The notes below the pieces were generated by a model, which saw only the letters and a program-made list of their open reading frames with translations, was not told the DNA's origin and ran no database searches. Position numbers and translations under genes: made by a program. DNA of 64,000 bases, from contig NZ_LT899436.1 in NCBI RefSeq assembly GCF_900198195.1, positions 3,129,001 to 3,193,000 on the forward strand. Reading direction: 5' to 3'. Below are positions 6,299-62,549 of this stretch, piece by piece (within the stretch, counting starts at the first letter, position 1; each line of letters opens with the position of its first letter). The stretch comes from Tenacibaculum jejuense (GTDB taxonomy: Bacteria > Bacteroidota > Bacteroidia > Flavobacteriales > Flavobacteriaceae).

Positions 6299-8359
6299 AT
6301 GAAAGAAAAAATGTCCCTCGCCATTATTATCATTTGTTTTAATATCCCTTATCTACTTGCTCAAGTAAACATGGACAAAGGTTTTAAAATGCTTGAAACA
6401 GGTGACTTTAAAAATGCTAAGTTATTTTTTGAAAATGTACTAAAACAAACTCCTAATAATAAAACAGCCAAGCTCTGTTATGGTAGAGCTTTAGGTTTAA
6501 CAGGTGAGACAGAAAAAGCAACTTCATTATTTACTGAATTATTAAATGGTTATCCTAATGATTTTGAAATCAAACTAAACTATGCAGAATCTTTACTCTG
6601 GGATAAAAGATTTCTGAAAGCAAAAAATTATTATGAGAAACTTCTTAAAGAAAAATCTAATAGTTTTAATGCACTTTTAGGATATGCAAATACTTTATCT
6701 AATTTAAAAGAATATAATTCAGCTCTTAAATTTGTAAATAAAGCTCTTGATGTTTCTCCCAACAACCCTAACGCTATGATATCTCGAAAATATATTAGAT
6801 TAGGATTAGCAGATACTCTTTTTAAGCAAGAAAAATTGGAAGAAGCCATGTTTTTTTTAAATGAAAACTTTAAAGATTTTAAGGATGATAAAGAATCTTT
6901 ACAATTACAAACAAATATTTTTTTAGCTAAAAAAGAGTATGAAAATGCAAAACTTAATTACTCCAAAAATTTAACAACTAAAAAAGACTCTGTTGTTTCT
7001 CTTAATGGTTTGTCGTTAATTGCTCATTTGCAAAAAAAGGATAGAAAAGCGTTACAATTTGCTGAAAAAGCTTTAGTAAAACTACCTCAAAATAAAAATC
7101 AACCATATGTAGAAAGAACTAAAGAACGATATGTACAAGCCTTAATCTGGAACAAGAAAAATAAAAAAGCTAAGCGAGAAATTAAGAAACTTTATGAAGA
7201 ATATGGAGATAGAAATTGGATTCATGCTTTGAATGCAACACTTCAAACTTACAGAGGAAATTCATCTGAAAGCGTAAAATATTATCAAAAAATACTAGAT
7301 CAGGATAAAACATCTTTTGATGGAAATTTAGGTTTAGCCAATGCTTTATTTGCAAACGATGAGCATAAAAAATCTTATAAAGCAGTACAGGAAACTTTAC
7401 AGGTTTTTCCTCGACAAAAAGATGCTATGGCACTTGAAAAAAAGCTATTATTAAAATTTACACCACATGTAAAACAACGTTTTAATTATAGTTTTGATAG
7501 TGGTGATAACATTTCTTACGCGTCTAATACTTCCATGGAATATCCATTAAATACTAGGCTAACTTTAACTTCTAGCTTGAACTTAAGAGACACAGAAAAT
7601 AAAAACTCTGGAGTTTCTACCAGTGCTATTAACTTTAGTGGAGGATTGAATTATATCATTTTACCTAAATTAAAATTAGTTTCTAGCATAGGATTAAATA
7701 AAGTTGGCTCTGAAAATTCAAATTACAATCAGTTTTCTGCAAATATTGCTTTACACATAAAACCTTTTAACCTTCAAAATGTTGAGATTGGTTACAGTAA
7801 GCAATTAGAAAATTTTAATGCTGATCTATTAAATAGAAGAATTGTAAATGATAATTATTTTATCAATTATAATATCAATACTAATTTCAACTTAGGGTGG
7901 TTTAATCAATATTTTTTAACACAATTAAGTGACGGTAATCAAAGAAATTTATTCTTCACTTCTTTGTATTACAACTTTATTTCAGATCCTGTGTTAAAAG
8001 GAGGTTTAAATTATCAATTTATAACTTTCAATCAACAAGTTCCTTCAATATACTTTAGTCCAGAACGATTTAACAATGCTGAAGTTTTCCTAGAACTACT
8101 TAAAGACGAAAATAACATCGCTCCAAAAAACTGGTATTATTGGCTTAGTGGTGCTACTGGTCTTCAATTTATTGATGATAACTCTAAACAATTAACGTAT
8201 AGAATACAATCTAGATTAGGATATAAGTTTTCTTCTCGATTTTTCCTACATGTCTTTGGACAACATACAAATATTGCATCTGCAACTGTAGGAGGCTTTA
8301 CTTTTACCAATTTAGGTATTTGTTTAAAATGGTATTTAAAAAATAGTGCGCTAAAATAA
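6299..8359 (+). CDS. TPR-repeat protein with C-terminal outer-membrane beta-barrel (YaiO-like)
   Basis: This 686-residue protein has an N-terminal signal peptide (residues 1-21, ending in LLAQ). Many tetratricopeptide repeats follow over residues 25-380 (for example NNKTAKLCYGRALGLTGETEKA). The C-terminal 300 residues alternate polar and aromatic strands and end in a barrel-like strand (LGICLKWYLKNSALK). This layout, periplasmic TPR followed by an outer-membrane barrel, is that of exopolysaccharide export proteins such as PgaA and BcsC and of YaiO-type barrels. It is likely the export port of the neighbouring locus. A strong hairpin terminator follows the stop directly at 8361-8388. Confidence 0.7.
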   Translation: MKEKMSLAIIIICFNIPYLLAQVNMDKGFKMLETGDFKNAKLFFENVLKQTPNNKTAKLCYGRALGLTGETEKATSLFTELLNGYPNDFEIKLNYAESLLWDKRFLKAKNYYEKLLKEKSNSFNALLGYANTLSNLKEYNSALKFVNKALDVSPNNPNAMISRKYIRLGLADTLFKQEKLEEAMFFLNENFKDFKDDKESLQLQTNIFLAKKEYENAKLNYSKNLTTKKDSVVSLNGLSLIAHLQKKDRKALQFAEKALVKLPQNKNQPYVERTKERYVQALIWNKKNKKAKREIKKLYEEYGDRNWIHALNATLQTYRGNSSESVKYYQKILDQDKTSFDGNLGLANALFANDEHKKSYKAVQETLQVFPRQKDAMALEKKLLLKFTPHVKQRFNYSFDSGDNISYASNTSMEYPLNTRLTLTSSLNLRDTENKNSGVSTSAINFSGGLNYIILPKLKLVSSIGLNKVGSENSNYNQFSANIALHIKPFNLQNVEIGYSKQLENFNADLLNRRIVNDNYFINYNINTNFNLGWFNQYFLTQLSDGNQRNLFFTSLYYNFISDPVLKGGLNYQFITFNQQVPSIYFSPERFNNAEVFLELLKDENNIAPKNWYYWLSGATGLQFIDDNSKQLTYRIQSRLGYKFSSRFFLHVFGQHTNIASATVGGFTFTNLGICLKWYLKNSALK

Positions 8360-8360
8360 A

Positions 8361-8388
8361 AACCCTTTTGTAAAGCTACAAAAGGGTT
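8361..8388. terminator. Hairpin terminator after the TPR gene; first unit of the repeat array
   Basis: A perfect 12-bp stem (AACCCTTTTGTA / TACAAAAGGGTT) with a four-base AAGC loop starts two bases after the stop codon. It is flanked by A/T runs, so it can terminate in both directions. It is the leftmost of eleven related hairpins in the array and the only one whose loop lacks a C-run on the minus strand. Confidence 0.75.
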
Positions 8389-10452
8389 TATCAACCAAAT
8401 AAATCTAAATGCTTCTTAACGAAGCGGGTTTTTCAAATAATGAAAAATGAAATTTTTAAGATTTGGGGTACTTCTATCTATTAAAAAACTATTCTAAAAA
8501 ACTTATTTACACTTCAAAAGTAAGTTAGCTTATCATCTTATTTTCTTTTAAATCGACACTTACTGTTTTATGTATAGTTAAAATAACATTTACATTCGAC
8601 GAACAGTTTTTAGATAAAAACTCACACCTTTAACAATTCATAACTTAATCTATATAACTAATTGAATCTCCTGAAACAACATTCGTTTAAAAGACTAATT
8701 ATAATTAAATTACATTTGACTGTTCTTTGCTCAATTAACTGTTTAGATAGTATAAATTAAAAAACCTTCTGCTACTTGGAGTTGCAAAAGGTTTCTTATT
8801 AATCAACCAAATAATTTTTTGAGTCTTCAAATTTAAAGAAGGGAATTATTTATAATGAGAAAACATAAACGTTTATAAATAGTTTGGGATAATTACTACT
8901 TACTTCTTACACTTCAAAAATACTACAGATATCAATTTATTTCTTGAAAAATCGCTTATACGGAGTAATCTTAAGACTAATAACGAGTGTAGATCGTTAA
9001 CTTGTTTATCATTGATAACTAATCCATTTTTAAGTAATATTAAAAAACTAAAAAACCTTTTACAGTTGGGAGTTGTAAAAGGTTTTTAAATTGAAAACAA
9101 ACATATACTTTCTAAATTTATCTTAAATGGAATTCACTAAAAAAACATAAACTTTTATAAATAGTTAGGGATAATTACTACTTACTTCTTACACTTCAAA
9201 AATACTACAGATATCATATTTATTTCTTGAAAAATCGCTTATACGGAGTAATCTCAAGACTAATAACAAATGTAGATCGTTAACTTGTTTATCATTGAAA
9301 CTAACCTATTTTCAAGTAATACTTAAAAACTAAAAAACCTTTTACAGTTGGGAGTTGTAAAAGGTTTTTAAATTGAAAACAAACATATACTTTCTAAATT
9401 TATCTTAAATGGAATTCACTTAAAAAAACATAAACTTTTATAAATAGTTAGGGATAATTACTACTTACTTCTTACACTTCAAAAATACTATAGATATCGT
9501 GTTTATTTCCTGAAAAATCGCTTATACGGAGTAATCTTAAGACTAATAACGAGTGTAAGATCGTTTACTTGTTTATCATTGAAACTAACCCATCTTTAAG
9601 TGATATTTAAAAACTAAAAAACCTTTTACAGTTGGGAGTTGTAAAAGGTTTTTAAATTGAAGATAAACGTATATTTTCTAAATTTATCTTGAATGGAATT
9701 CACTCAAAAAAACATAAACTTTTATAAATAGTTAGGGATAATTACTACTTACTTCTTACACTTCAAAAATACTATGGATATCATATTTATTTCTCAAAAA
9801 TCGTTTAGTTGGAGTATTGTATAGATTAACTACTTACATAAATCGTTCGCAAGTTTTTATCAAAAAAATTACATAGTATAAAACATAAAACCTTTTGCAA
9901 TTGGGGTCTGCAAAAGGTTTTATTAATCAACCAAATAAATCTAAAAACCTTCAAATAATGAAGGGCGTTTTTATAATGAAAAAAACAAAAAACTTTTATG
10001 TATTGTAAAACTTTTAATTCTTATTTACACTTCAAAGATACTGATAACAAACGCTTTAAACTTTGCATTTTAGCTATAAAGTAGTTTACTTTAGATGAAT
10101 GGTTTAAACCACTCGTTAAATCGATTTAAACACCTAAAAATCAAACAACTGAAACATCTACAAATAAAAAACCTTTTGCAATTGGGGTCTGCAAAAGGTT
10201 TTTATTAATCAACCAAATAAATCTAAAAAACCTTCAATTTTTAGAAGGATGTTTTTCTATAATGAAAAAAACAAAAAAACTTTTATGTATTGTAAAACTT
10301 TTAATTCTTATTTACACTTCAAAGATACTGATAACAAGCTCCTTAAAACTTAATTTTTAGTTATGAAGTAGTTTACTTTAGATGAATGGTTTAAACCACT
10401 CGTTAAATCGATTTAAACACCTAAAAATCAAATAACTGAAACATCTACAAAT

Positions 10453-10600
10453 AAAAAACCTTTTGCAATTGGGGTCTGCAAAAGGTTTTTATTAATCAAC
10501 CAAATAAATCTAAAAAACCTTCAATTTTTAGAAGGATGTTTTTCTATAATGAAAAAAACAAAAAAACTTTTATGTATTGTAAAACTTTTAATTCTTATTT
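10453..10600 (-). ncRNA. Candidate small RNA of about 150 nt (representative unit 8 of the array)
   Basis: On the minus strand a TATCTTTG box (10614-10607) matches the Bacteroidota -7 consensus TAnnTTTG, putting the start near 10600. The predicted RNA contains a small hairpin (CCTTCTAAAAATTGAAGG, 10518-10535), a conserved unpaired GATTTATTTGGTTGATTA segment, and a terminal hairpin with loop GACCCCAATT followed by U residues at about 10453. The other ten units give equivalent 140-150-nt predictions. A canonical -33 TTG is not evident, so the promoter would need help. All units carry TCG (mostly TCGTT) 71-74 nt upstream of the box. Strand and expression are inferred, not shown. Confidence 0.45.
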
Positions 10601-11605
10601 ACACTTCAAAGATACTGATAACAAGCTCCTTAAAACTTAATTTTTAGTTATGAAGTAGTTTACTTTAGACGAATGGTTTAAACCACTCGTTAAATCGATT
10701 TAAACACCTAAAAATCAAACAACTGAAACATCTACAAATAAAAAACCTTTTGCAATTGGGGTCTGCAAAAGGTTTTTATTAATCAACCAAATAAATCTAA
10801 AAAACCTTCAATTTTTAGAAGGATGTTTTTCTATAATGAAAAAAACAAAAAAACTTTTATGTATTGTAAAACTTTTAATTCTTATTTATACTTCAAAGAT
10901 ACTGATAACAAGCTCCTTAAAACTTAATTTTTAGTTATGAAGTAGTTTACTTTAGATAAATGGTTTAAACCACTCGTTAAACCAACATAAACACTTAAAA
11001 ATCAAAAAAACTGAAACATCTACAAATAAAAAACCTTTTGCAATTGGGGTCTGCAAAAGGTTTTATTAATCAACCAAATAAATCTAAAATCCTTCAACTT
11101 AATGAAGGGTGTTTTCTATAATGAAAAAAACAAAAAAACTTTTATGTATTTTAAAACTTTTAATTCTTATTTACACTCCAAAGATACTGATAACAAGTTC
11201 TTTAAAACTGAATATTTAGTTATGAAGTAGCTTACTTTAGATGAATGGTATAAACGATTCGGTAAGCTGATTTACTATTATTGAATTACATTGATATTAA
11301 TCTAATTTTTCGGTTTATGAAATAAAAAAATCCTTCTTTTAAGAAGGATTTTATAATCAACCAAATAAATCTAAAAAACTCCACTTGTTTGTGAAGTGGG
11401 GAATTCAAATAATGAAAAAAACAAAATTTTAAGAGGTACCTCTAATATATTTAATTCGAACTTTTAATTTAAATACACTTTAAAGATATGGTAGATTTAA
11501 ACTAAATAATTAAATATTCGGTATGTAGATGTTGTTACATCGACTAAAGCAAGAGCTTAAGTCGATGAATAGTAAAACTTTGTAAATGTGTTGATTATAA
11601 AAAAC

Positions 11606-12325
11606 CTATAATAAGTTTAGCCTTTTCATGAGCTCTGATCGATTCGATCTACTTACTGGAATAACATCTTTTTCTATAAGTACACTATTATCTTCTATAT
11701 CTACAATTTTCTTTAAATTGATAATATAAGATCTATGCACTTTTAAAAATAAATCGTTAGGTAGTTTCTCTTCTATTTTCTTTAAGGTAGAATGAACCGT
11801 GTAGTTTTTATCTTTTGTCTTAATTAAAATATAATCTCCTTTTGCTTCTACTATATTGATACTAGGAATTTCAATTTTAATTAACCTTCTATCTATGTTT
11901 ATATACAGCTGCTGGTCTTCATCTTTTGCTTCCTCTTTTCCAGATGTATTAGCTTCTTGATTTTGATTACTAAATGTAAACTTTTTTGCTTTTTCTATTG
12001 CTTTCACAAAACGTGGTAAAGTAATAGGTTTTACTAAATAATCTACAATACATTCGTACTCAAAAGCATCTATTGCGAATTTTTGATCTGAAGTTGTTAA
12101 AATAATTCTTGGAGGTTTTTTAAGTGTTTGAATTAAATCAAATCCCGTAAAATCTGGCATGTGTATATCTAAAAAAATAAGATCTACTTCATTTTGATTT
12201 AAATACTTTATTGCTTCTATAGCGTTTGAAAATTCCTCTATAACGTTTAAAGATCCTTCAGTTTTACATAGCTGGCTTACTATTGTTCTTGCTGTGGATT
12301 CATCATCAATGATTAAACAATTCAT
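11606..12325 (-). CDS. LytTR-family response regulator
   Basis: This 239-residue protein has an N-terminal receiver domain (residues 1-120). It shows an acidic pocket at Asp7/Asp8, phospho-acceptor Asp53 in LIFLDIHMP, and a conserved Lys in YLVKPI. The C-terminal LytTR DNA-binding domain (about residues 135-239) has the typical FLKVHRSYIINLKKI core. It lies 14 bases downstream of the HPt gene and on the same strand as the kinase, so it is the likely output of the relay. The 3' end faces the small-RNA-like array 118 bases away with no strong terminator of its own. LytTR proteins elsewhere often control a few nearby genes or RNAs, which makes the array a candidate target (inference). Confidence 0.9.
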   Translation of the reverse strand: MNCLIIDDESTARTIVSQLCKTEGSLNVIEEFSNAIEAIKYLNQNEVDLIFLDIHMPDFTGFDLIQTLKKPPRIILTTSDQKFAIDAFEYECIVDYLVKPITLPRFVKAIEKAKKFTFSNQNQEANTSGKEEAKDEDQQLYINIDRRLIKIEIPSINIVEAKGDYILIKTKDKNYTVHSTLKKIEEKLPNDLFLKVHRSYIINLKKIVDIEDNSVLIEKDVIPVSRSNRSELMKRLNLL

Positions 12326-12339
12326 GTATTTAAATAATT

Positions 12340-12663
12340 TTACGCATTGTCTAAAAAATTAGACATCTTAGTTAATAATTCCAAGAAATCAGTGTGTCCT
12401 TTCATATCTCCTTCTAAGAGTTCTTTTTCGTATGCTACAGCTGATTCATATGATTTTTCTAAGCCTAAAATACTAATTTTATGTTTAATTTTATGAACTA
12501 TCTCTGCTATTTGTTTAAAATCCTGTTTTTCAACATGATTGTTATACGTATTTACCTCTTCTGGTAATTCACTTTTTAAAATTGACAGCATTTTTGCTTC
12601 AAACTCTTTGTCTCCTCCGGAAAGTTCGCTGATGTAGTTTAAATTTGGTTGTTCTGAATTCAT
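12340..12663 (-). CDS. Histidine phosphotransfer (HPt) protein
   Basis: This small helical protein of 107 residues has the HPt signature IAEIVHKIKHKISILGL, with the probable phospho-accepting His57. It has no other domain. HPt proteins shuttle phosphate between a kinase-linked receiver and a terminal regulator. Here it sits between a histidine kinase gene (6 bases upstream) and a LytTR regulator (15 bases downstream), and a free receiver protein is encoded just upstream of the kinase. All parts of a four-step relay are therefore present as separate proteins. The order of transfer is inferred. Confidence 0.8.
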   Translation of the reverse strand: MNSEQPNLNYISELSGGDKEFEAKMLSILKSELPEEVNTYNNHVEKQDFKQIAEIVHKIKHKISILGLEKSYESAVAYEKELLEGDMKGHTDFLELLTKMSNFLDNA

Positions 12664-12668
12664 TTTAT

Positions 12669-15035
12669 TTATTTCTTAAATTCGATGTAAAATGTTGTTC
12701 CTATCCTCTCTACACTTTCTAACCATATTTTCCCGCCATAAACATCTACAATTTTCTTTACTATAGAAAGACCTATACCTGTAGAATCTTTATGATTTCC
12801 TAATGATTGGAATACTTCAAAAATTTTTGCGTGATATTCTTTCTTTATTCCAATACCGTTATCTTGAACACTAAATATATAGCTTTTCTTTTTTTCTTTA
12901 ACATTAATTTTTATTAATCCTTCTTCTTTATCGATATAATTTACAGCATTACTCATTAAATTTTGAAAAAGTTGCTGGATTCTCACCTTATCTGCCTTAA
13001 TAATCGGTAAGTTTTTATCTATTTCAATTTTAATATGCTTTGGAACATAAATTAATTTACTAATTCCTTTTATGACTTCATAAGTATTTACATTTTCAAA
13101 AGCTTCATCATCGTTATTAATACTCGAATAATTAAGAATATCATTAATTAAACGTTCCATTTTCTCTACGACTTCCTGGATCATATCAACATTCTGCACA
13201 CCACCTTTTCCTAGATTTTCTCCATAGTCTTCTTTCAACCAACTTGTTAATGCGGAAATACTTCGTAATGGAGATTTTAGATCATGAGAAACTATATGAG
13301 CATATTCTTCAAGCTCAACATTACGTTGTTCTAGCTTTTTAAGCAACTCTTCTTTCTGTGATTCTAATTTTTTGATATGAGTAATATCTAGAACGATACC
13401 TATTGAACCTGTAATCTCTCCTTGTATATCAAAATTGGGTGCAGCACTTACTAATAAAACTTTTTCTTGATTAAGGTTATTTATAAATTTAAATTCATAG
13501 GATCCTGACTTTTGACCTTTTTTATCTTTATTTCTTTGTTGAATAAAATCAATAATCTTTTCTTTCTTAAAAAGCTCTCTAACATCTTGATTCAAAATTT
13601 TCTCTTCATCAAAACCAGTCATTTTCATGAAGTTACTATTGGTTGATAAAATTTTATTTCTTCGATCTAATTCTACTAATCCTAACTTCAAATTTGCTAT
13701 AATGTTGCTATATCTTTTTTTGTGTGTTTCTAGGCTTTTTCTGTAATTCCTAGATAAAGTTACATCTCGGTACGTCCAAAGGTGTCCTTTGTATTCATTA
13801 TTCTTTGATATCGGTATGTAATCTCGCTCTAATATTCTTCCATCCACCAATCTTAATTCGTCTCCTAAAACTACTTTCTTATCTTTTATTAATTTATTGA
13901 TTCGATTTGCAAAATATTCTGGTCGTTCAAAAAGATGCTTTGTCTGGCTTAGTAATTTCAGGCAATTTTGACCTAATAATTCTGATGGTTTTAGTGGAAT
14001 TGAAAAAATCTCGCACATTTTTTTATTAGAAATAACAATCTCTCTCTTTTCATTTTCTAATAAAACGGCACTATCTAAATGAGAAATTAAAGATGTTAAT
14101 CTATTTTCTGATTCAATTAGCCTTTGTTCTGCTAATTTATTTTCAGTAATATCTTCAACCGTTGCTACTTGAAATTTCACTTTACTTTCAGGACTTCTTA
14201 CAGAATTCACAATTGTTTTAGCCCATAAGATATCACCATCTTTTTTTATGTATCTTTTCTCTTGAGTAAAATTATTTATTTCTCCAGAGGAAATTTTATT
14301 TCTTAATTTTTTTGAAGCTTCACGATCGTCTGGATGAGTAAATTCATTTACTGTTAAGGCTCTCATTTCTTCTAACGTATAACCTAACATTTTTGTAATC
14401 GTGTTATTAGCAAAAACAAAATCATCGTCTTGCTCTTGTGATAAAACAATACCTATAGGAGAATTATTAAAAATAATATCTAATTGATGTTTTTGTTCTT
14501 CTAATAATTCTTGAATTGCAATTTCTTCTGTAATATCTCTAGCTATACCTTGCGCTCCTGCTACTTCTCCATTTGTGTTACATATTAAACTACAATTAAC
14601 TTCTAAAGTTTTAATTGTTTTGTTTTTGGTAATAATTCTAGATCTATACTTAGTATAAAAACCTTCTTGTATTAAATTTTTAAAAGCACCTATGGTGTAT
14701 CCATAATCGTCAGGATGAACGATTTTCATTAAGTTAAGTGGAGTACCTTCTGTATAATCATAACCAAACATAGTTATGGCTATATCATTCATTTTTATAA
14801 CATTGCCTCTAAGATCTATCTGTACAAAGGCATCATTAATATTTTCAAAAATTCCTTTAAGTTCAGAATCTTTTTTTGATAATTCTTCTTCTAAGTGTTT
14901 TGTTTTGGTCTCTAGCTTGTTGATTAAGTTTTCAGATTCTTTAGTAAAACTGTTGAGTTTTTCTTCTGCAGCTAGTCTTGCTTTTTTCTCATTTTCTAAA
15001 GCCCGTTTCAAATCGTTACTCACAATATCACTCAT
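12669..15035 (-). CDS. Multi-PAS sensor histidine kinase
   Basis: This 788-residue cytoplasmic protein has no transmembrane segment. It has an N-terminal coiled coil (residues 8-60) and then about four PAS/PAC domains (roughly 60-175, 182-305, 310-425 and 435-560; motifs such as GYTLEEMRAL and GSIGIVLDITHIKK). A HisKA dimerisation domain follows with His584 in IVSHDLKSPLRSI, then an HATPase domain with N (NLMSNAVNYI), G1 (DNGIGI) and G2 (GIGLSIVKKI) boxes. It lacks a receiver domain of its own, so it is not a hybrid kinase. The adjacent receiver, HPt and LytTR genes supply the missing relay steps. The signal is unknown; soluble PAS kinases commonly sense redox state, oxygen or small ligands. 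Confidence 0.9.
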   Translation of the reverse strand: MSDIVSNDLKRALENEKKARLAAEEKLNSFTKESENLINKLETKTKHLEEELSKKDSELKGIFENINDAFVQIDLRGNVIKMNDIAITMFGYDYTEGTPLNLMKIVHPDDYGYTIGAFKNLIQEGFYTKYRSRIITKNKTIKTLEVNCSLICNTNGEVAGAQGIARDITEEIAIQELLEEQKHQLDIIFNNSPIGIVLSQEQDDDFVFANNTITKMLGYTLEEMRALTVNEFTHPDDREASKKLRNKISSGEINNFTQEKRYIKKDGDILWAKTIVNSVRSPESKVKFQVATVEDITENKLAEQRLIESENRLTSLISHLDSAVLLENEKREIVISNKKMCEIFSIPLKPSELLGQNCLKLLSQTKHLFERPEYFANRINKLIKDKKVVLGDELRLVDGRILERDYIPISKNNEYKGHLWTYRDVTLSRNYRKSLETHKKRYSNIIANLKLGLVELDRRNKILSTNSNFMKMTGFDEEKILNQDVRELFKKEKIIDFIQQRNKDKKGQKSGSYEFKFINNLNQEKVLLVSAAPNFDIQGEITGSIGIVLDITHIKKLESQKEELLKKLEQRNVELEEYAHIVSHDLKSPLRSISALTSWLKEDYGENLGKGGVQNVDMIQEVVEKMERLINDILNYSSINNDDEAFENVNTYEVIKGISKLIYVPKHIKIEIDKNLPIIKADKVRIQQLFQNLMSNAVNYIDKEEGLIKINVKEKKKSYIFSVQDNGIGIKKEYHAKIFEVFQSLGNHKDSTGIGLSIVKKIVDVYGGKIWLESVERIGTTFYIEFKK

Positions 15036-15134: not shown

Positions 15135-15548
15135 TTAAACTGAAATCAACTCATTAGCGCTCCAGTAAGATAACACTTTTATTAGTTTATTTTGATAATC
15201 TTCATATTTAAGAGGTTTAACCATGTAGCCCGCAATTCCTATTCTATAACATTCTAACATATCTTTTTGATTTGTAGATGTTGTTAATATAATAGTAGGT
15301 AAATATTTTAATACTTCGTCATCCTTAAGAATTTTAAGGAATTCGATACCATTTATTTTAGGCATGTTCAAATCTAGAAGTATAATATTTGGTAAATTGT
15401 CTTTATCTTCTAAAATTTTCAAAGCTTCTTCTCCATTATTTGCTTCAATAACTCGATGCTTTGAATCTAGCTTAGATAAAATCCGATTGAATTTCATTAC
15501 TTCTATTTGGTCATCTTCAATTAACAATATTGTTAATTTTCTTTGCAT
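15135..15548 (-). CDS. Single-domain response regulator (CheY/Rcp1-like)
   Basis: This 137-residue stand-alone receiver has acidic residues at Glu11-Asp12-Asp13, phospho-acceptor Asp59 in IILLDLNMPKINGIEFL, switch Thr in IILTTS, and Lys in YMVKPLKYEDY. It has no output domain. The long alpha4-beta5 region (NQKDMLECYRIGIAGYMVKP) is typical of phytochrome-type Rcp1 receivers common in Bacteroidota. It lies 99 bases upstream of the kinase on the same strand and is a plausible intermediate between kinase and HPt. It is divergent from the DUF255 gene. Confidence 0.88.
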   Translation of the reverse strand: MQRKLTILLIEDDQIEVMKFNRILSKLDSKHRVIEANNGEEALKILEDKDNLPNIILLDLNMPKINGIEFLKILKDDEVLKYLPTIILTTSTNQKDMLECYRIGIAGYMVKPLKYEDYQNKLIKVLSYWSANELISV

Positions 15549-56366: not shown

Positions 56367-58298
56367 ATGAAAACTAGTATAGACATTTTAAAAACCTGGT
56401 TTCAGACTGGTGACAAACCTACAGAAACTCAATTCGAAAATTTAATAGACAGCTTTCATCACAAAGATGATGGTAACCTAATAAAAGACTATGAAATATT
56501 TGATAATGGAAATGTTTCATTCACTTTTTCCGATGGAAATACAGCCAAAATTGAAAAGTTTGTTCTTCCTAACACCATGCCTCAAAATTTTATTCAAGGC
56601 TTAGTAGAAACATTAAATAGTAAGGTAAACTTTGAAACTGGCAAACAATTATCTGATGAAAATTTTACTACTGCACTACAACAAAAACTTTTAGAGTTAA
56701 AAAATTATGTGCATCCAGAGTTTCATCAAATAACAGAGATAAAAGGATTACAAGAAGCTATTGAAAGTAAAGTAGATATAGTTGCTGGTAAGCAATTATC
56801 TGACGAAAACTTTAGTACTGAAGAAAAAGAAAAATTAGCAGGATTAGAAAATTACACAGCTCCAGACTCAAAACCAATAAGTTATATTGAAGAGCTTGAA
56901 GATACTTTAGCAAAAATCAACCAAGACCTTGAAACTAAAGTCGAAATCGTAGAAGGAAAACAACTTTCTGATGAAAACTTTACAATAGTAGAGAAAGAAA
57001 AACTAGCAAGTTTCAACATCAATACTTTCGCTTCCATTTCTGATGGAACAAACACTATAGAAGCTAATGGACAGGCTGATCAAATTGTTTTTGATGGAGT
57101 AACGATAGATCCTGATCTAAAAGTTATAAAAGTAGAAGGCGGTACTCTTCCAGAAAATATTCCCATGAGTAAGATTGAAGATCTTCAACAAGAAATTGAG
57201 AGTATTTATATGTCTATTGATGAAAAAGCGAGTCAAGAAGATATACAAATAGAATTAAACGCTATAAACGAAGATCTAAATAACAAAATTGATGAAGGAG
57301 GTTTAGAGCCTTATATTCAAAATTTAGAAGAGCAAATTAATGATAAAGTTGATAGTACTGAATTTTATGATGAACTAGATCAAATTAAATCTGATATAGA
57401 TAATAAATTAGATGAAAGTCAAGTTGATGACAAAATCGCTGATGTGAAATCTGAATTGGATTCTATAAACGAAGACTTAAATAATAAAATTGATGAAGCT
57501 GCCTTAGAGCCATACATTCAAAATTTAGAAGAGCAAATTAATGACAAAATTAGCGGTATTGAATTTCATGATGAGTTAGACCAAATTAAGTTAGATATAG
57601 ATAATAAATTAGATGAAAGTCAAGTTGACGATAAAATCGCTGATGTGAAATCTGAATTAGATAATAAGGTCGATAAAGTTCCAGGAAAACAATTATCTAC
57701 AAATGATTTTACAACAGCCGAAAAACAAAAACTTGCTGATTTAGGAAACCAAAGCTTAAAAATATATAAAGATTCAAAATCTGTGTTCCATGATCCTGAA
57801 GACTTAAAAGCTGGAAAAATAGATTTATTAGATCAATCTTTTATTGCATATGAGTTACTTAGAGGTTTTAACACAATAAAAATTAACTGTTCTATTCGAT
57901 GTTACATCCCTAATAACGTTCAGGTTACACAGGATAAGTTTAATTTTTCTGTAGAACTTGGCTTAATTAGAAATTTAAATTTTGCTTATCCATTATTTAA
58001 TGTATCAGTTATAAACTTTGATCAAACAAAGCTTAGTTACATAAACGATATCACTTTAATAACAGATTTGGTTACACATAATGCGAATGGTGTAAAATTC
58101 ATCACTCAAAATATTGAAATAGATTGTTCTAAGCCAATACAAACATCATATTCAAAAACAGAAACGTATCCAAGAGATTATTTCGATTATCCATTATCTG
58201 AAACTCCTAATAAAACTGATAAAAATAAATTACTACTAAACTTTACAAGCTCTCCATTTAGAATATGGGCACAGGCTTCAGCAGTTATGGTGTATTAA
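56367..58298 (+). CDS. Tail fibre A (643 aa), paralogue 1 of 3
   Basis: The first 250 residues form a domain shared with two downstream genes (MKTSIDILKTWFQTGDKP, FHHKDDGN, then several GKQLSDENF...EKEKLA motifs and an IHPEFHQ- or VHPEFHQ-type segment). Then come two near-identical 67-residue coiled-coil repeats (about 57264-57665) and a C-terminal domain of about 190 residues without similarity to fibres B and C. The layout fits a trimeric fibre with a conserved base and variable tip. Confidence 0.75.
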   Translation: MKTSIDILKTWFQTGDKPTETQFENLIDSFHHKDDGNLIKDYEIFDNGNVSFTFSDGNTAKIEKFVLPNTMPQNFIQGLVETLNSKVNFETGKQLSDENFTTALQQKLLELKNYVHPEFHQITEIKGLQEAIESKVDIVAGKQLSDENFSTEEKEKLAGLENYTAPDSKPISYIEELEDTLAKINQDLETKVEIVEGKQLSDENFTIVEKEKLASFNINTFASISDGTNTIEANGQADQIVFDGVTIDPDLKVIKVEGGTLPENIPMSKIEDLQQEIESIYMSIDEKASQEDIQIELNAINEDLNNKIDEGGLEPYIQNLEEQINDKVDSTEFYDELDQIKSDIDNKLDESQVDDKIADVKSELDSINEDLNNKIDEAALEPYIQNLEEQINDKISGIEFHDELDQIKLDIDNKLDESQVDDKIADVKSELDNKVDKVPGKQLSTNDFTTAEKQKLADLGNQSLKIYKDSKSVFHDPEDLKAGKIDLLDQSFIAYELLRGFNTIKINCSIRCYIPNNVQVTQDKFNFSVELGLIRNLNFAYPLFNVSVINFDQTKLSYINDITLITDLVTHNANGVKFITQNIEIDCSKPIQTSYSKTETYPRDYFDYPLSETPNKTDKNKLLLNFTSSPFRIWAQASAVMVY

Positions 58299-59590: not shown

Positions 59591-61903
59591 ATGAAAACAA
59601 GTTTAGACATATTAAAGAGTTGGTTCCAAACTGGAGACAAACCTACTGAAAATCAATTTGCAAATCTTTTAGATAGTTTTCATCATAAAGATGATGGAAA
59701 TATTATCGCCGACTATACGATTTTTGATAATGGAAATGTATCTTTTACTTTTTCTGATGGTAAAACTGCAGAAATACAAAAATTTGTACTTCCTAATACT
59801 ATGCCTCAAAATTTTATTGATGGTTTAGTAGAAGTTTTAAATTCAAAGGTAAACAACGAAGCAGGAAAACAATTATCGGACGAAAATTTCACAACAGTTC
59901 TAAAGCAGAAACTAACTGAATTAGAAAATTATATACACCCTGAATTTCACGAAATCACTGATATTAATGGTTTACAAGAAGCCATAGAAAGCAAAGTTGA
60001 TTATGTTGAAGGAAAGCAATTATCTGATGAAAATTTTTCAAGCGAAGAAAAAGAAAAGTTAGCCAGTTTAAGTAATTATATAGCTCCAGAAACAAAACCA
60101 ATAAGTTATATTGAAGAACTTGAAGAAACATTAACTAAAATTAATCAAGATTTAGAGGACAAAGTTAATGCTGTAGATGGCAAACAACTTTCTGATGAAA
60201 ATTTTTCAACTGAAGAAAAAGAAAAGTTAGCTAATTTCAATAGTAATACATTTTCATCTATCTCTGACGGGGAAAATATAATTACTGCAAATGGACAAGC
60301 AGATAAACTTACTTTTGAAGGAGTTACGATAAATGTAGATGAAAAAATCATTACAATTAATCAACCAGAAATCCCTACTTCATTACCGATAAGTAGTATT
60401 GAAAATTTACAAGAAGAATTAGATGATTTAAACACATCACTTAGCGAAAAAATCGACTCTAGTGAACTTCGAAATGAATTAGACCAGGTAAATGAAGAAA
60501 TTAACAACAAAGTTGATTATGAAGATTTATCAAATACAGTTCAAGAAATTGAAGGTAATCTAGAAGAGAAAGTAGAACGTAGTGATTTCTCTATAATTGA
60601 GGATAAAATCAATGAAATTGAAGGTAACTTAGACGATAAACTAGATGTGAGTGAATTCACACCTACTCGTGACAAAATCAATGAAATTGAAAGCAATCTA
60701 GACGATAAATTAGATGTGAGTGAGTTCACTCCTACCCGTGATAAAATCAATGAAATTGAAAATAATTTAGACGATAAACTAGATGTGAGTGAGTTCACAC
60801 CTACCCGTGATAAAATCAATGAAATTGAAAATAATTTAGACAATAAATTAGATGTGAGTGAGTTTACTCCTACTCGCGATAAAATCAATGAAATTGAAAG
60901 TAATCTAGATGATAAATTAGATGTGAGTGAGTTCACTCCTACCCGTGATAAAATCAATGAAATTGAAAATAACTTAGACGACAAACTAAATGTGAGTGAG
61001 TTCACACCTACTCGCGATAAAATCAATGAAATTGAAAGTAATCTAGACGATAAACTAGACGTGAGTGAGTTCACACCTACTCGCGATAAAATCAATGAAA
61101 TTGAAAATAATTTAGACGATAAAGTAGATAAAGAAAGTGATAAACAACTATCTAGTAATGATTTTACAGATAAAGACAAAACAAAATTAGCCAATCTTAG
61201 TTTAAATAATTTTAGTAGAATTTCAGATGGTATTCGTACAATCAATGTTACTAAACCAAATGATCAGATTATTTTTAACGGTGCAACTGTAAACCCTGTT
61301 AATAATACTATAACTATTGATTCAACTAATAATCAGAACATTTTTCCAGAATTCAATTTTTCTTGGGGAAGTAAATCTAGAGATTATGTTAAAAATTATA
61401 GTAACGATCCTAAAAGCTCTTATTCAGGTAATGTTAATCTTTTAGAATGTGAATTGATCAATGGTTCAGATGATATTTTAAAGTATGATCCTAAAATATT
61501 ACTGTACCGATATAAATCAAAAAAGAAAATTACTTATTACGATAAAGTAACTAATAAACCTTTTCTTTTTACTAAAAAAGCAAGATTTTATCATTATGAA
61601 GATCAAGGTAAAAGAAACACCGTAATACCTATTTCTAGTCGTAAGGTTGTATTAGATTTTGGTTTAGAGCATTTTTTCAAAAAGGAACTTCCTCCTTCAA
61701 ATGTTCTATTTGCTCAAGGAATGAAAAATTCAAATGAGAGTACACTTTATAGAAAAAAAGGCCGTTCACAAGCACATTTTTATATCAAATTAAGATTACA
61801 ATTAACAAATAAAGAAAAAACAATTTTATCTCCTTTTTCTGAAACTCTGAGAGTTTTTATAGATCAAAATGAAGAGTATAAAATTAGTTTTGAAAGAACC
61901 TAA
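59591..61903 (+). CDS. Tail fibre C (770 aa) with 23-residue repeats, paralogue 3 of 3
   Basis: It has the same N-terminal domain as fibres A and B (KTSLDILKSWFQTGDKP). A long coiled coil follows with seven full copies of a 23-residue unit (DKINEIE.NLDDKLDVSEF plus TPTR) and a partial eighth, then a unique C-terminal tip of about 200 residues. The repeat probably sets shaft length. The 69-base DNA units are nearly identical, so copy number may vary by slippage or recombination without breaking the frame. Confidence 0.78.
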   Translation: MKTSLDILKSWFQTGDKPTENQFANLLDSFHHKDDGNIIADYTIFDNGNVSFTFSDGKTAEIQKFVLPNTMPQNFIDGLVEVLNSKVNNEAGKQLSDENFTTVLKQKLTELENYIHPEFHEITDINGLQEAIESKVDYVEGKQLSDENFSSEEKEKLASLSNYIAPETKPISYIEELEETLTKINQDLEDKVNAVDGKQLSDENFSTEEKEKLANFNSNTFSSISDGENIITANGQADKLTFEGVTINVDEKIITINQPEIPTSLPISSIENLQEELDDLNTSLSEKIDSSELRNELDQVNEEINNKVDYEDLSNTVQEIEGNLEEKVERSDFSIIEDKINEIEGNLDDKLDVSEFTPTRDKINEIESNLDDKLDVSEFTPTRDKINEIENNLDDKLDVSEFTPTRDKINEIENNLDNKLDVSEFTPTRDKINEIESNLDDKLDVSEFTPTRDKINEIENNLDDKLNVSEFTPTRDKINEIESNLDDKLDVSEFTPTRDKINEIENNLDDKVDKESDKQLSSNDFTDKDKTKLANLSLNNFSRISDGIRTINVTKPNDQIIFNGATVNPVNNTITIDSTNNQNIFPEFNFSWGSKSRDYVKNYSNDPKSSYSGNVNLLECELINGSDDILKYDPKILLYRYKSKKKITYYDKVTNKPFLFTKKARFYHYEDQGKRNTVIPISSRKVVLDFGLEHFFKKELPPSNVLFAQGMKNSNESTLYRKKGRSQAHFYIKLRLQLTNKEKTILSPFSETLRVFIDQNEEYKISFERT
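60602..61127 (+). repeat. 69-bp in-frame tandem repeats in fibre C
   Basis: Seven full units and a partial eighth of 69 bp encode the 23-residue shaft repeat. Each begins GATAAAATCAATGAAATTGA. Variation is mostly third-position plus Ser/Asn and Asp/Asn changes, suggesting recent expansion. Confidence 0.9.
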
Positions 61904-61904
61904 T

Positions 61905-62521
61905 ATTCATAACAAAGTCGCTCTTAAATGAGCTACTCCAAAAGGTAACTCTTAAATGAGATGCCCCACAAAATAGCTCTCGTAATGAGCTAAGTATTCT
62001 TGGAAAAAGACAGCTACACTAGTAGTTGTCTCCAAGGATACAAAATAGAAAACGAAATCATTCATAACAAAGTCGCTCTTAAATGAGCTACTCCAAAAGG
62101 CAACTCTTAAATGAGATGCCCCACAAAATAGCTCTCGTAATGAGCTAAGTATCCTTGGTAAAAGACAGCTACAATGGTAGCTGTCTCCAAGGATACAAAA
62201 CAGAAAACGAAATCATTCATAACAAAATCGCTCTTAAATGAGCTACTACAAAAGGCAACTCTTAAATGAGATGCCCCACAAAATAGCTCTCGTAATGAGC
62301 TAAGTATCCTTGGAAAAAGACAGCTACATTGGTAGTTGTCTCCGAGGATACAAAATAGAAAACAAAATCATTTACAAACAAAGTCGCTCTTAAATGAGCT
62401 ACTCCAAAAGGTAACTCTTAAATGAGATGCCCCACGAAATAGCTCTCGTAATGAGCTAAGTATCATTGGAAAAAGACAGCTACACTGGTAGTTGTCTCCG
62501 AGTATACAAAATAGAAAACAA
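61905..62521. repeat. Four structured 155-bp direct repeats between fibre C and J2
   Basis: Units start at 61905, 62060, 62215 and 62370, exactly 155 bases apart and about 95% identical. The length is not a multiple of three and no shared frame exists, so it is not coding. Each contains three small hairpins with a common CTC-loop-GAG core (GCTCTTAAATGAGC; GGCAACTCTTAAATGAGATGCC without its central pairs broken; TAGCTCTCGTAATGAGCTA). A long hairpin follows (GTATCCTTGG and GACAGCTAC pairing with GTAGTTGTC and CCAAGGATAC). Most substitutions keep pairing through G-U or compensate, as in unit 2. Possible roles include RNA protein-binding sites or recombination spots. Confidence 0.9.
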
Positions 62522-62549
62522 ATTAACATCTATTAAATAATTAAGCATC

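Follow-up and report, generated by a model that had tools for sequence, protein, structure and literature searches.

The window analysed here is a 64-kb part of the 4.61-Mb single-contig genome of Tenacibaculum jejuense, in which eleven minus-strand units follow one another within about 3 kb, each running from a promoter-type box through a hairpin to a U-run. They lie directly downstream of, and on the same strand as, genes for a PAS-domain histidine kinase, an Hpt phosphotransfer protein and a LytTR response regulator. Comparison with other genomes suggests that they are very probably tandem paralogous small RNA (sRNA) genes of about 142-158 nt, each with its own sigma-A-type promoter and intrinsic terminator, and part of what is apparently a real and undescribed tandem sRNA family. 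Further, each promoter probably carries a three-site LytTR operator fed by the adjacent kinase and Hpt, through which a phosphorelay signal would switch the units on together. LytTR-driven, tandem and redundant sRNAs acting post-transcriptionally thus offer the best overall explanation, one that we consider rather likely. An earlier reading of this DNA from its letters alone (the sequence-only reading) had proposed a minus-strand small-RNA gene array of eleven units, a proposal that the comparison supports well.

Layout of the array

No open reading frame (ORF) of at least 80 aa is present between the end of the TPR gene (8359), which bounds the array on its far side, and the end of the LytTR gene (11606). 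The units, all on the minus strand, are given below with their bit scores from a covariance model of the 3' part, which was built from 44 rows, four of them from the window and matching by construction.

11325..11476, minus: unit 11, first after the regulator gene; box TATCTTTA at 11488-11481; 85 bits; loop not C-rich
11027..11174, minus: unit 10; box 11186-11179; 102 bits
10739..10889, minus: unit 9; box 10901-10894; 101 bits
10452..10602, minus: unit 8; box 10614-10607; 101 bits
10165..10315, minus: unit 7; box 10327-10320; 101 bits
9884..10028, minus: unit 6; box 10040-10033; 98 bits
9615..9759, minus: unit 5, divergent 3' part; box 9771-9764; 41 bits; no UUUCAUU or 20-nt core
9331..9475, minus: unit 4, divergent type; box 9487-9480; 39 bits
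9049..9192, minus: unit 3, divergent type; box 9204-9197; 37 bits
8758..8910, minus: unit 2; box 8922-8915; 71 bits
8357..8510, minus: unit 1, the last; box 8522-8515; 83 bits; loop not C-rich; hairpin at the 3' end of the convergent TPR gene

The box, which the sequence-only reading had reported as TAnnTTTG in every unit, has exactly this form in ten of the eleven, but reads TATCTTTA in the unit nearest the regulator gene. From box start to U-run end the units measure 159-170 nt, a figure for which the scripted measurement took, in some units, a second T-run a few nucleotides further on. The choice of T-run also sets the length of the predicted RNA, whose start is placed about 12 nt past the box start on the basis of the box position of -12 to -5 given for flavobacteria in PMC9723704 (this and the other papers cited by PubMed Central (PMC) number are drawn on from excerpts). 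The hairpin-to-box distance, earlier put at 146-154 nt, comes to 148-157 nt in all eleven units by our own folding, and the variable unit length, earlier put at 271-400, reappears as box-to-box spacings of 269-302 nt plus a single one of 400. The C-rich terminator loops (CCCC, TCCC or TCC) claimed for units 2-10 were also recovered, the two end units having TTAAAA and AGCTTT.

Searched against the window, the covariance model finds all eleven units on the minus strand, eight of them at E ≤4.4e-10 and the divergent ones (9049-9714) at E 1e-4 to 4e-4, which together with the box and U-run layout bears out the count of eleven tandem units. Ten weaker matches (E up to 1), all on the plus strand, lie over the array or next to it; the terminators are near-palindromic. 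At 94-95% match, Tandem Repeats Finder detects repeats with periods of 283 nt (3.4 copies) and 287 nt (4.8 copies); the repeat regularity of the array is not chance. Units 3-5 (boxes at 9204, 9487 and 9771) lack both the 20-nt core and the UUUCAUU segment described below. The constant length from box to terminator in the window is partly due to recent duplication of the middle units. It had been read earlier as a sign of selection for a fixed transcript, a reading that does not carry over to other genomes, where the box-to-core distance ranges from 71 to 143 nt and constant length is seen to be a local trait.

The family and its conserved parts

An exact scan with the 20-nt TTTAGATTTATTTGGTTGAT over one genome per species (84,980 species, a set that may exclude records of the window's own genome or of one very close to it) returned 33 stretches, 27 of them from eleven Tenacibaculum genomes and six from elsewhere. 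The carriers are R3_Bin 240, L4_Bin 095, M341, 623-G, 4-47, 4-641-3Z, 607-3Z, T. skagerrakense, T. agarivorans, MAG-161 and ALOHA_ZT_65, and 13 of the 27 stretches hold two to four exact core matches each. The six matches outside the genus (L049, L055, L056, L057, L070 and L073) have no strict TAnnTTTG within 175 nt and were dropped as chance. At E ≤0.001 the covariance model finds nine copies in the own genome. Eight of these belong to the array and the ninth lies at 175.7 kb; the array's three divergent units were picked up only by the smaller, window-wide search. In a genus sample the model matches five of 78 genomes, four of them credibly and the own genome included; a weak match in G073, which precedes a frame resembling dnaG by eye, was judged false. 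At the family level one of 249 genomes matches, and this is the window's own. Searches over 40 genomes had stricter filters, hence weak relatives may be missed.

The sequence-only reading knew of no named RNA family of this form. Indeed, Rfam 15, Flavo-1 included, gives no match at or above gathering in the window, and when matches up to E 10 are admitted, the array's top hit is a miRNA model that scores 29.3 bits, its cut being 90. Within the titles, abstract starts and passages of the open-access PMC literature, no paper appears to describe the family.

Conservation was counted over 60 distinct Tenacibaculum units that were located by the 20-nt core and have 150 nt or more of upstream sequence. 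Six units that a contig or locus end truncates, or that were not delimited, were omitted, and 16 of the 60 delimited units, mainly near-duplicates or odd ones, stand outside the 44-row model. From 5' to 3' the order is box, a AAGTGTAAATAAG-like start, a variable stretch, UUUUUCAUU, a variable hairpin, UUUUUAGAUUUAUUUGGUUGAUUAA, the terminator hairpin, often with CCCCAAU in its loop, and the U-run. At 60-145 nt before the core, TAnnTTT[G/A] is present in 60/60 units (shuffle mean 15.7, maximum 24; opposite strand 17) and the strict TAnnTTTG in 48 (shuffle mean 4.2, maximum 9; opposite strand 7). Hairpins occurring elsewhere without the box had been named by the sequence-only reading as a ground for giving up its proposal; in a version of this check run on the core-located units, none lacks the box in its TAnnTTT[G/A] form. 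The segment UUUCAUU is found in 53 of the 60 (shuffle mean 3.3, maximum 8; control region 0) and in seven of the eleven window units, where its predicted mean unpaired probability is 0.49-0.84. The start of the alignment was set by a fuzzy match to TTTTTCATTATTTGAA, so that conservation there is partly circular, but the count of 53 is unanchored.

Hairpin and U-run are present in 62 of 64 units, and CCC in 35 of the 62 apical loops, a frequency at which the C-rich loop can no longer serve as the defining trait it was taken for. The terminator stems covary: RNAalifold predicts 11 terminator pairs, of which seven show, in at least one sequence, a change on both sides with the pair kept. Within the aligned 3' part, no stretch is more conserved than the 20-nt core; since the core doubled as the search key, its invariance is partly by selection. 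Support for the first hairpin is modest, as it folds at ≤-3 kcal/mol in 49 of 60 units (shuffle mean 32, maximum 41) and is not predicted by RNAalifold on the MAFFT alignment. A predicted pairing between the 5' end and the core was not credited, since the 5' end varies (GTAAATAAG, GTAATTAAG, GTATTTAAG) and the core is constant.

A conserved sense frame is absent: seven of the eleven window RNAs lack a closed frame of at least 8 codons from ATG, GTG or TTG, and over the 60 units the longest ATG frame ranges from 0 to 35 codons. The units hence combine box, hairpin and U-run with no conserved frame between them, as is typical of intrinsically terminated sRNA genes. That the transcripts instead run on the plus strand, encoding a short MKK leader peptide per unit with the hairpins as attenuators, is scarcely credible. 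The conserved segment does read ATGAAA on that strand and the terminators are near-palindromic, but opposite-strand frames from this site scatter over 3-64 codons with no common length (53 units), and positions 8300-11700 hold one plus-strand TAnnTTTG and 14 minus-strand ones.

A tree of 63 units, considered without support values, places the LytTR-side unit of the window with the LytTR-side units of T. agarivorans, 4-47, 4-641-3Z and 623-G. The TPR-side unit groups with the TPR-side units of 4-641-3Z and 4-47, as well as with units of 623-G and T. agarivorans, in whose fetched stretches no TPR gene is present, and the TPR-side units of M341 fall elsewhere. Position also largely governs the grouping of the four ALOHA units and of the three-unit arrays found in T. 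skagerrakense and 607-3Z, whereas the middle window units, like several elsewhere, are duplicates of local origin. The two end units have the look of older, separate paralogs. The recent local duplication of the middle units is what one would expect of non-functional intergenic repeats of the repetitive extragenic palindromic (REP) or miniature inverted-repeat transposable element (MITE) kind, spread by duplication; nonetheless, this explanation is most unlikely, given that some units group by position across genomes, that promoter, operator and transcribed part show footprint conservation, and that the link to one regulator is fixed.

A pattern joining operator and box, ATCTA-N14-18-ATCGA-N26-30-TAnnTTT, has five matches in the own genome against one in the reversed control. 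That at 175.3 kb heads an overlooked unit (with TACTTTTG, UUUCAUU and, in the terminator, a CCCC loop; 35 bits) a short way upstream of the solitary copy, and that at 1407.5 kb heads a plausible, weakly scoring one (20.4 bits, E 0.15); the remaining three were checked by model score alone. None of the eleven array units is recovered; the array operators deviate from the strict form. Two family units are in tandem near a cupin gene (L009 1060-1561; G000:C1 at about 175.3-175.8 kb), and a T. skagerrakense site (G035, L042) with neighbour proteins similar by eye also carries a unit.

Regulator locus and predicted operators

Neither the regulator cassette linked to the array nor the LytTR-type operators had been noticed in the sequence-only reading. 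The genes that flank the array are as follows.

11606..12325, minus: LytTR response regulator, proposed activator of the array; PF00072 receiver and PF04397 LytTR domains
12340..12663, minus: Hpt phosphotransfer protein (PF01627); in 10 of the 11 other carriers
12669..15035, minus: PAS-domain histidine kinase with PAS, HisKA and HATPase_c; in 10 of the 11 other carriers
15135..15548, minus: single-domain response regulator (PF00072); in 6 of the 11 other carriers, several fetched loci ending earlier
6299..8359, plus: TPR protein, far boundary of the array, convergent; relatives in L050, L051, L053 and L065

The LytTR gene is present in all eleven other carriers at 78-92% identity, with a unit core starting 198-287 nt beyond it on the same strand; Hpt and kinase go unseen solely in the locus that is cut inside the LytTR gene. 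In some carriers a single unit is seen next to LytTR.

The promoters were aligned on the box, which corresponds to the sigma-A -7 box TAnnTTTG given in PMC9723704; 55 were used, eleven units being omitted for want of a clear extended box or of sufficient upstream sequence. Three conserved upstream blocks, 21-22 bp apart, end near -75, -54 and -33, with conserved positions near -83/-80/-75, -62/-59/-54 and -33. These promoters were scanned with a 9-mer that we take to be the LytTR consensus. At up to one mismatch, 25 matches fall at -85/-84 and 23 at -64/-63, the highest count at any single position in 200 mononucleotide shuffles being 6. LytTR repeats are described as 9 bp long and 12 bp apart, e.g., ACCACTTAT-12 bp-ACCGCTTAT (PMC6193735), and direct repeats of this length and spacing (21 bp start to start), of the ACCxxTTAx type, are found in the family. 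The two box-distal repeats, judged by sequence, fit LytTR operators. All three sites are present at up to two mismatches in 18 of the 55 promoters, with shifts of -10, +10 and +11 bp giving 5, 7 and 8. The predicted operators in the window are listed below.

11516..11576, minus: predicted three-site LytTR-type operator of unit 11
11214..11274, minus: predicted operator, unit 10
10929..10989, minus: predicted operator, unit 9
10642..10702, minus: predicted operator, unit 8; region near-identical to units 7 and 9
10355..10415, minus: predicted operator, unit 7; region near-identical to units 8 and 9
10068..10128, minus: predicted operator, unit 6
9799..9859, minus: predicted operator, unit 5; poor consensus match, fits a looser pattern
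9515..9575, minus: predicted operator, unit 4; poor match
9232..9292, minus: predicted operator, unit 3; poor match
8950..9010, minus: predicted operator, unit 2; poor match
8550..8610, minus: predicted operator, unit 1

The same arrangement extends to genus members without a credible array match, among which 26 fetched loci have LytTR proteins of 64-74% identity: in 15 of them a triple operator after the LytTR gene scores above the 99th percentile of 455 control windows.

Several observations count against LytTR control of the units. The operator score is below the cut in the other 11 of these 26 loci, the third, box-proximal repeat fits the LytTR consensus poorly, and so do window units 2-5. 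Irrespective of position, the LytTR matches number 126 at one mismatch against a shuffle mean of 97 (maximum 119), and 586 against 585 at two mismatches; it is the positions of the matches, not their totals, that stand out. A shift of -20 bp, close to the repeat period, still gives 13 three-site promoters, and the promoters are paralogous, so that shuffles overstate significance.

The presence of operator-like repeats in promoter after promoter, together with their regular spacing, would also suit a DNA decoy in which tandem operators titrate the LytTR protein and the transcripts are by-products. This is very unlikely in view of the strong conservation of the transcribed part, the covariation in its terminator stem and the poor match of several window operators. 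LytTR-activated sRNA genes remain the preferred reading. Of two further pattern searches, a looser operator pattern proved uninformative (17 matches against 62 in the control, with one in the array and no new unit recognised, the other 16 not being taken further), and an extended promoter pattern gave 14 matches (control 7), eight at known units and six without a clear operator.

In 19 of the 26 non-carrier loci a frame of at least 70 codons starts 99-184 nt after the LytTR gene. All three downstream proteins examined have a type IX secretion system (T9SS) sorting domain, two of them directly after LytTR (L182, L183) and one further on (L185). In L182 and L183 the T9SS gene lies between LytTR and a TPR gene 47-50% identical to that of the window, i.e., in the place held here by the array. 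Depending on the species, the same regulatory place seems to govern either a protein or sRNAs.

Further arrangements were noted at other loci. L186 (G000:C1:3009209-3011731), elsewhere in the genome of the window, is a 49% homologue of the T9SS/DUF6923 protein that occupies the array's place in G091, and has no obvious operator upstream. In L184 (genus member G077, minus strand, box at about 3556), the triple operator and a TATCTTTG box come after LytTR. The roughly 170 nt that follow have no notable start-to-stop frame but contain a terminator and three copies of ACCCCTTA, and may represent another, single-copy C-rich sRNA. L185 (G005, box 1236) has an operator-like stretch and a TATATTTGAAGTATAATTAA promoter, then a short stretch with TTGGGGG and a terminator but no long frame. 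Two tandem LytTR genes with a 121-aa frame between them occur in L112 and L114 (G020, G081).

Proposed action and known systems

In the circuit that we envisage, the PAS histidine kinase and Hpt would feed the LytTR regulator encoded immediately upstream of the array, which once activated would bind the triple operators, so that the units would be transcribed together. The RNAs would then act post-transcriptionally, UUUUUCAUU pairing with AAUGAAAAA starts, common in exported proteins, and blocking translation, while the AGAUUUAUUUGGUUGAUUAA core would offer a binding site for a protein or a second site of pairing; the high copy number would give dosage and redundancy. As UUUCAUU is antisense to AAUGAAA starts, translational repression is favoured, and of the 15 TTCAAANAATGAAAAAA-type sites outside the array, nine resemble genuine starts on inspection by eye, most of them belonging to lipoproteins, secreted proteins or GG-leader peptides. 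For these roles of segment and core we put the chances somewhat below even. The evidence also includes observations that speak against them. The TTCAAANAATGAAAAAA-type sites number 17 in the genome (two in the array) against 13 in the reversed control, with no clear enrichment, and AAUGAAA-type starts are ordinary for exported proteins. Antisense-of-core matches with up to three mismatches number 14 in the own genome (control 1), of which nine are family members; none of the other five is convincing, although the opening codons of a 508-codon frame hold one of them. Lastly, three window units have neither UUUCAUU nor the core.

With no clear antisense target for the core, a protein-binding role becomes a serious rival: the LytTR-controlled RNAs could sequester an RNA-binding protein via the invariant core, as RNAs of the CsrB/RsmY type do, rather than pair with mRNAs. 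We consider this rather unlikely. That the core is the most conserved stretch of the 3' part and yet finds no convincing target would be accounted for, and many copies suit titration; yet its invariance stems in part from its use as the search key, each RNA carries one core and not several, three window units carry none, and UUUCAUU and, in 35 of 62 units, a CCC loop are conserved too. Under the favoured post-transcriptional reading, a broader evolutionary proposal may be ventured, if more tentatively than the pairing. In one Tenacibaculum clade the LytTR phosphorelay would have swapped its adjacent output, a protein gene under the same operator in many sisters, for an amplified tandem sRNA battery with a triple operator each, which would silence many exported proteins via an anti-start-codon seed and amount to an RNA-based global LytTR output.

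The family may work like the response-regulator-driven redundant sRNAs (LhrC, csRNA, Qrr) and FopS, to which it is likened and from which it is set apart by description, with no membership established. Qrr1-5 of Vibrio are several redundant sRNAs driven by the LuxU-LuxO phosphorelay, with LuxO acting alongside sigma-54. The link of a phosphorelay to several redundant sRNAs is shared, whereas the box here is TAnnTTT[G/A], Rfam gives no match, and TGG-N8-10-TGC is found in none of the 55 promoters between -60 and +20 of the box start (GG-N10-GC in two). With regard to LhrC, LisR is not a LytTR regulator, and flavobacteria mostly lack Shine-Dalgarno sequences. LhrC1-5 of Listeria monocytogenes is a five-copy, LisRK-dependent family that represses surface-adhesin translation (PMC4132741); likewise multicopy and tied to a two-component system, the present family differs in having no Rfam match, and where LhrC has UCCC or CU-rich loops said to bind Shine-Dalgarno sequences, it has CCC in the above-mentioned share of terminator loops.

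The streptococcal csRNAs are several similar sRNAs under CiaR, many with two stem-loops, in which CAU as anti-AUG in 53/61 is proposed to block translation initiation (PMC3091779). They resemble the present family in that several similar sRNAs depend, here by prediction, on one response regulator, and perhaps in the anti-AUG segment, for which UUUCAUU is the candidate here; the linked regulator of the present family is of the LytTR rather than the CiaR type. The csRNAs also carry an anti-Shine-Dalgarno sequence, and the excerpts of that paper make no mention of a tandem arrangement. In the same phylum, FopS and GibS of Bacteroides thetaiotaomicron include 14 FopS paralogs with sigma-ABfr promoters, and FopS pairs at the start region of exported (SusC) mRNAs (PMC11697453). 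Many paralogs and, on the favoured reading, action at translation starts are the points of likeness; FopS and GibS are about 65 and 70 nt long, have a 5' seed and RbpB antagonism, and no response regulator is named in the excerpts. Rfp18 of Flavobacterium psychrophilum, likewise flavobacterial, is described as a single sRNA conserved in Flavobacterium, in the paper from which the sigma-A -7 box TAnnTTTG is taken (PMC9723704).

The analysis would add an Rfam-absent RNA family whose predicted regulator, operator and linked kinase make a directly testable circuit, and whose copy numbers and paralogs (up to eleven in tandem) form a natural series for asking why bacteria keep redundant sRNAs. To our knowledge, few studies of sRNA control in Bacteroidota have gone beyond Bacteroides and Flavobacterium.

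The window contains other repeats as well. At 61905-62523, between ORFs of 770 aa and 289 aa and with no ORF of at least 120 aa over them, lie four tandem 155-bp units with shorter AAATGAG-type sub-repeats and a TATCCTTGG...CCAAGGATA hairpin. Tandem repeats inside large ORFs are found at 57262-57662 (two copies of 201 bp) and 60602-61129 (7.7 copies of 69 bp).

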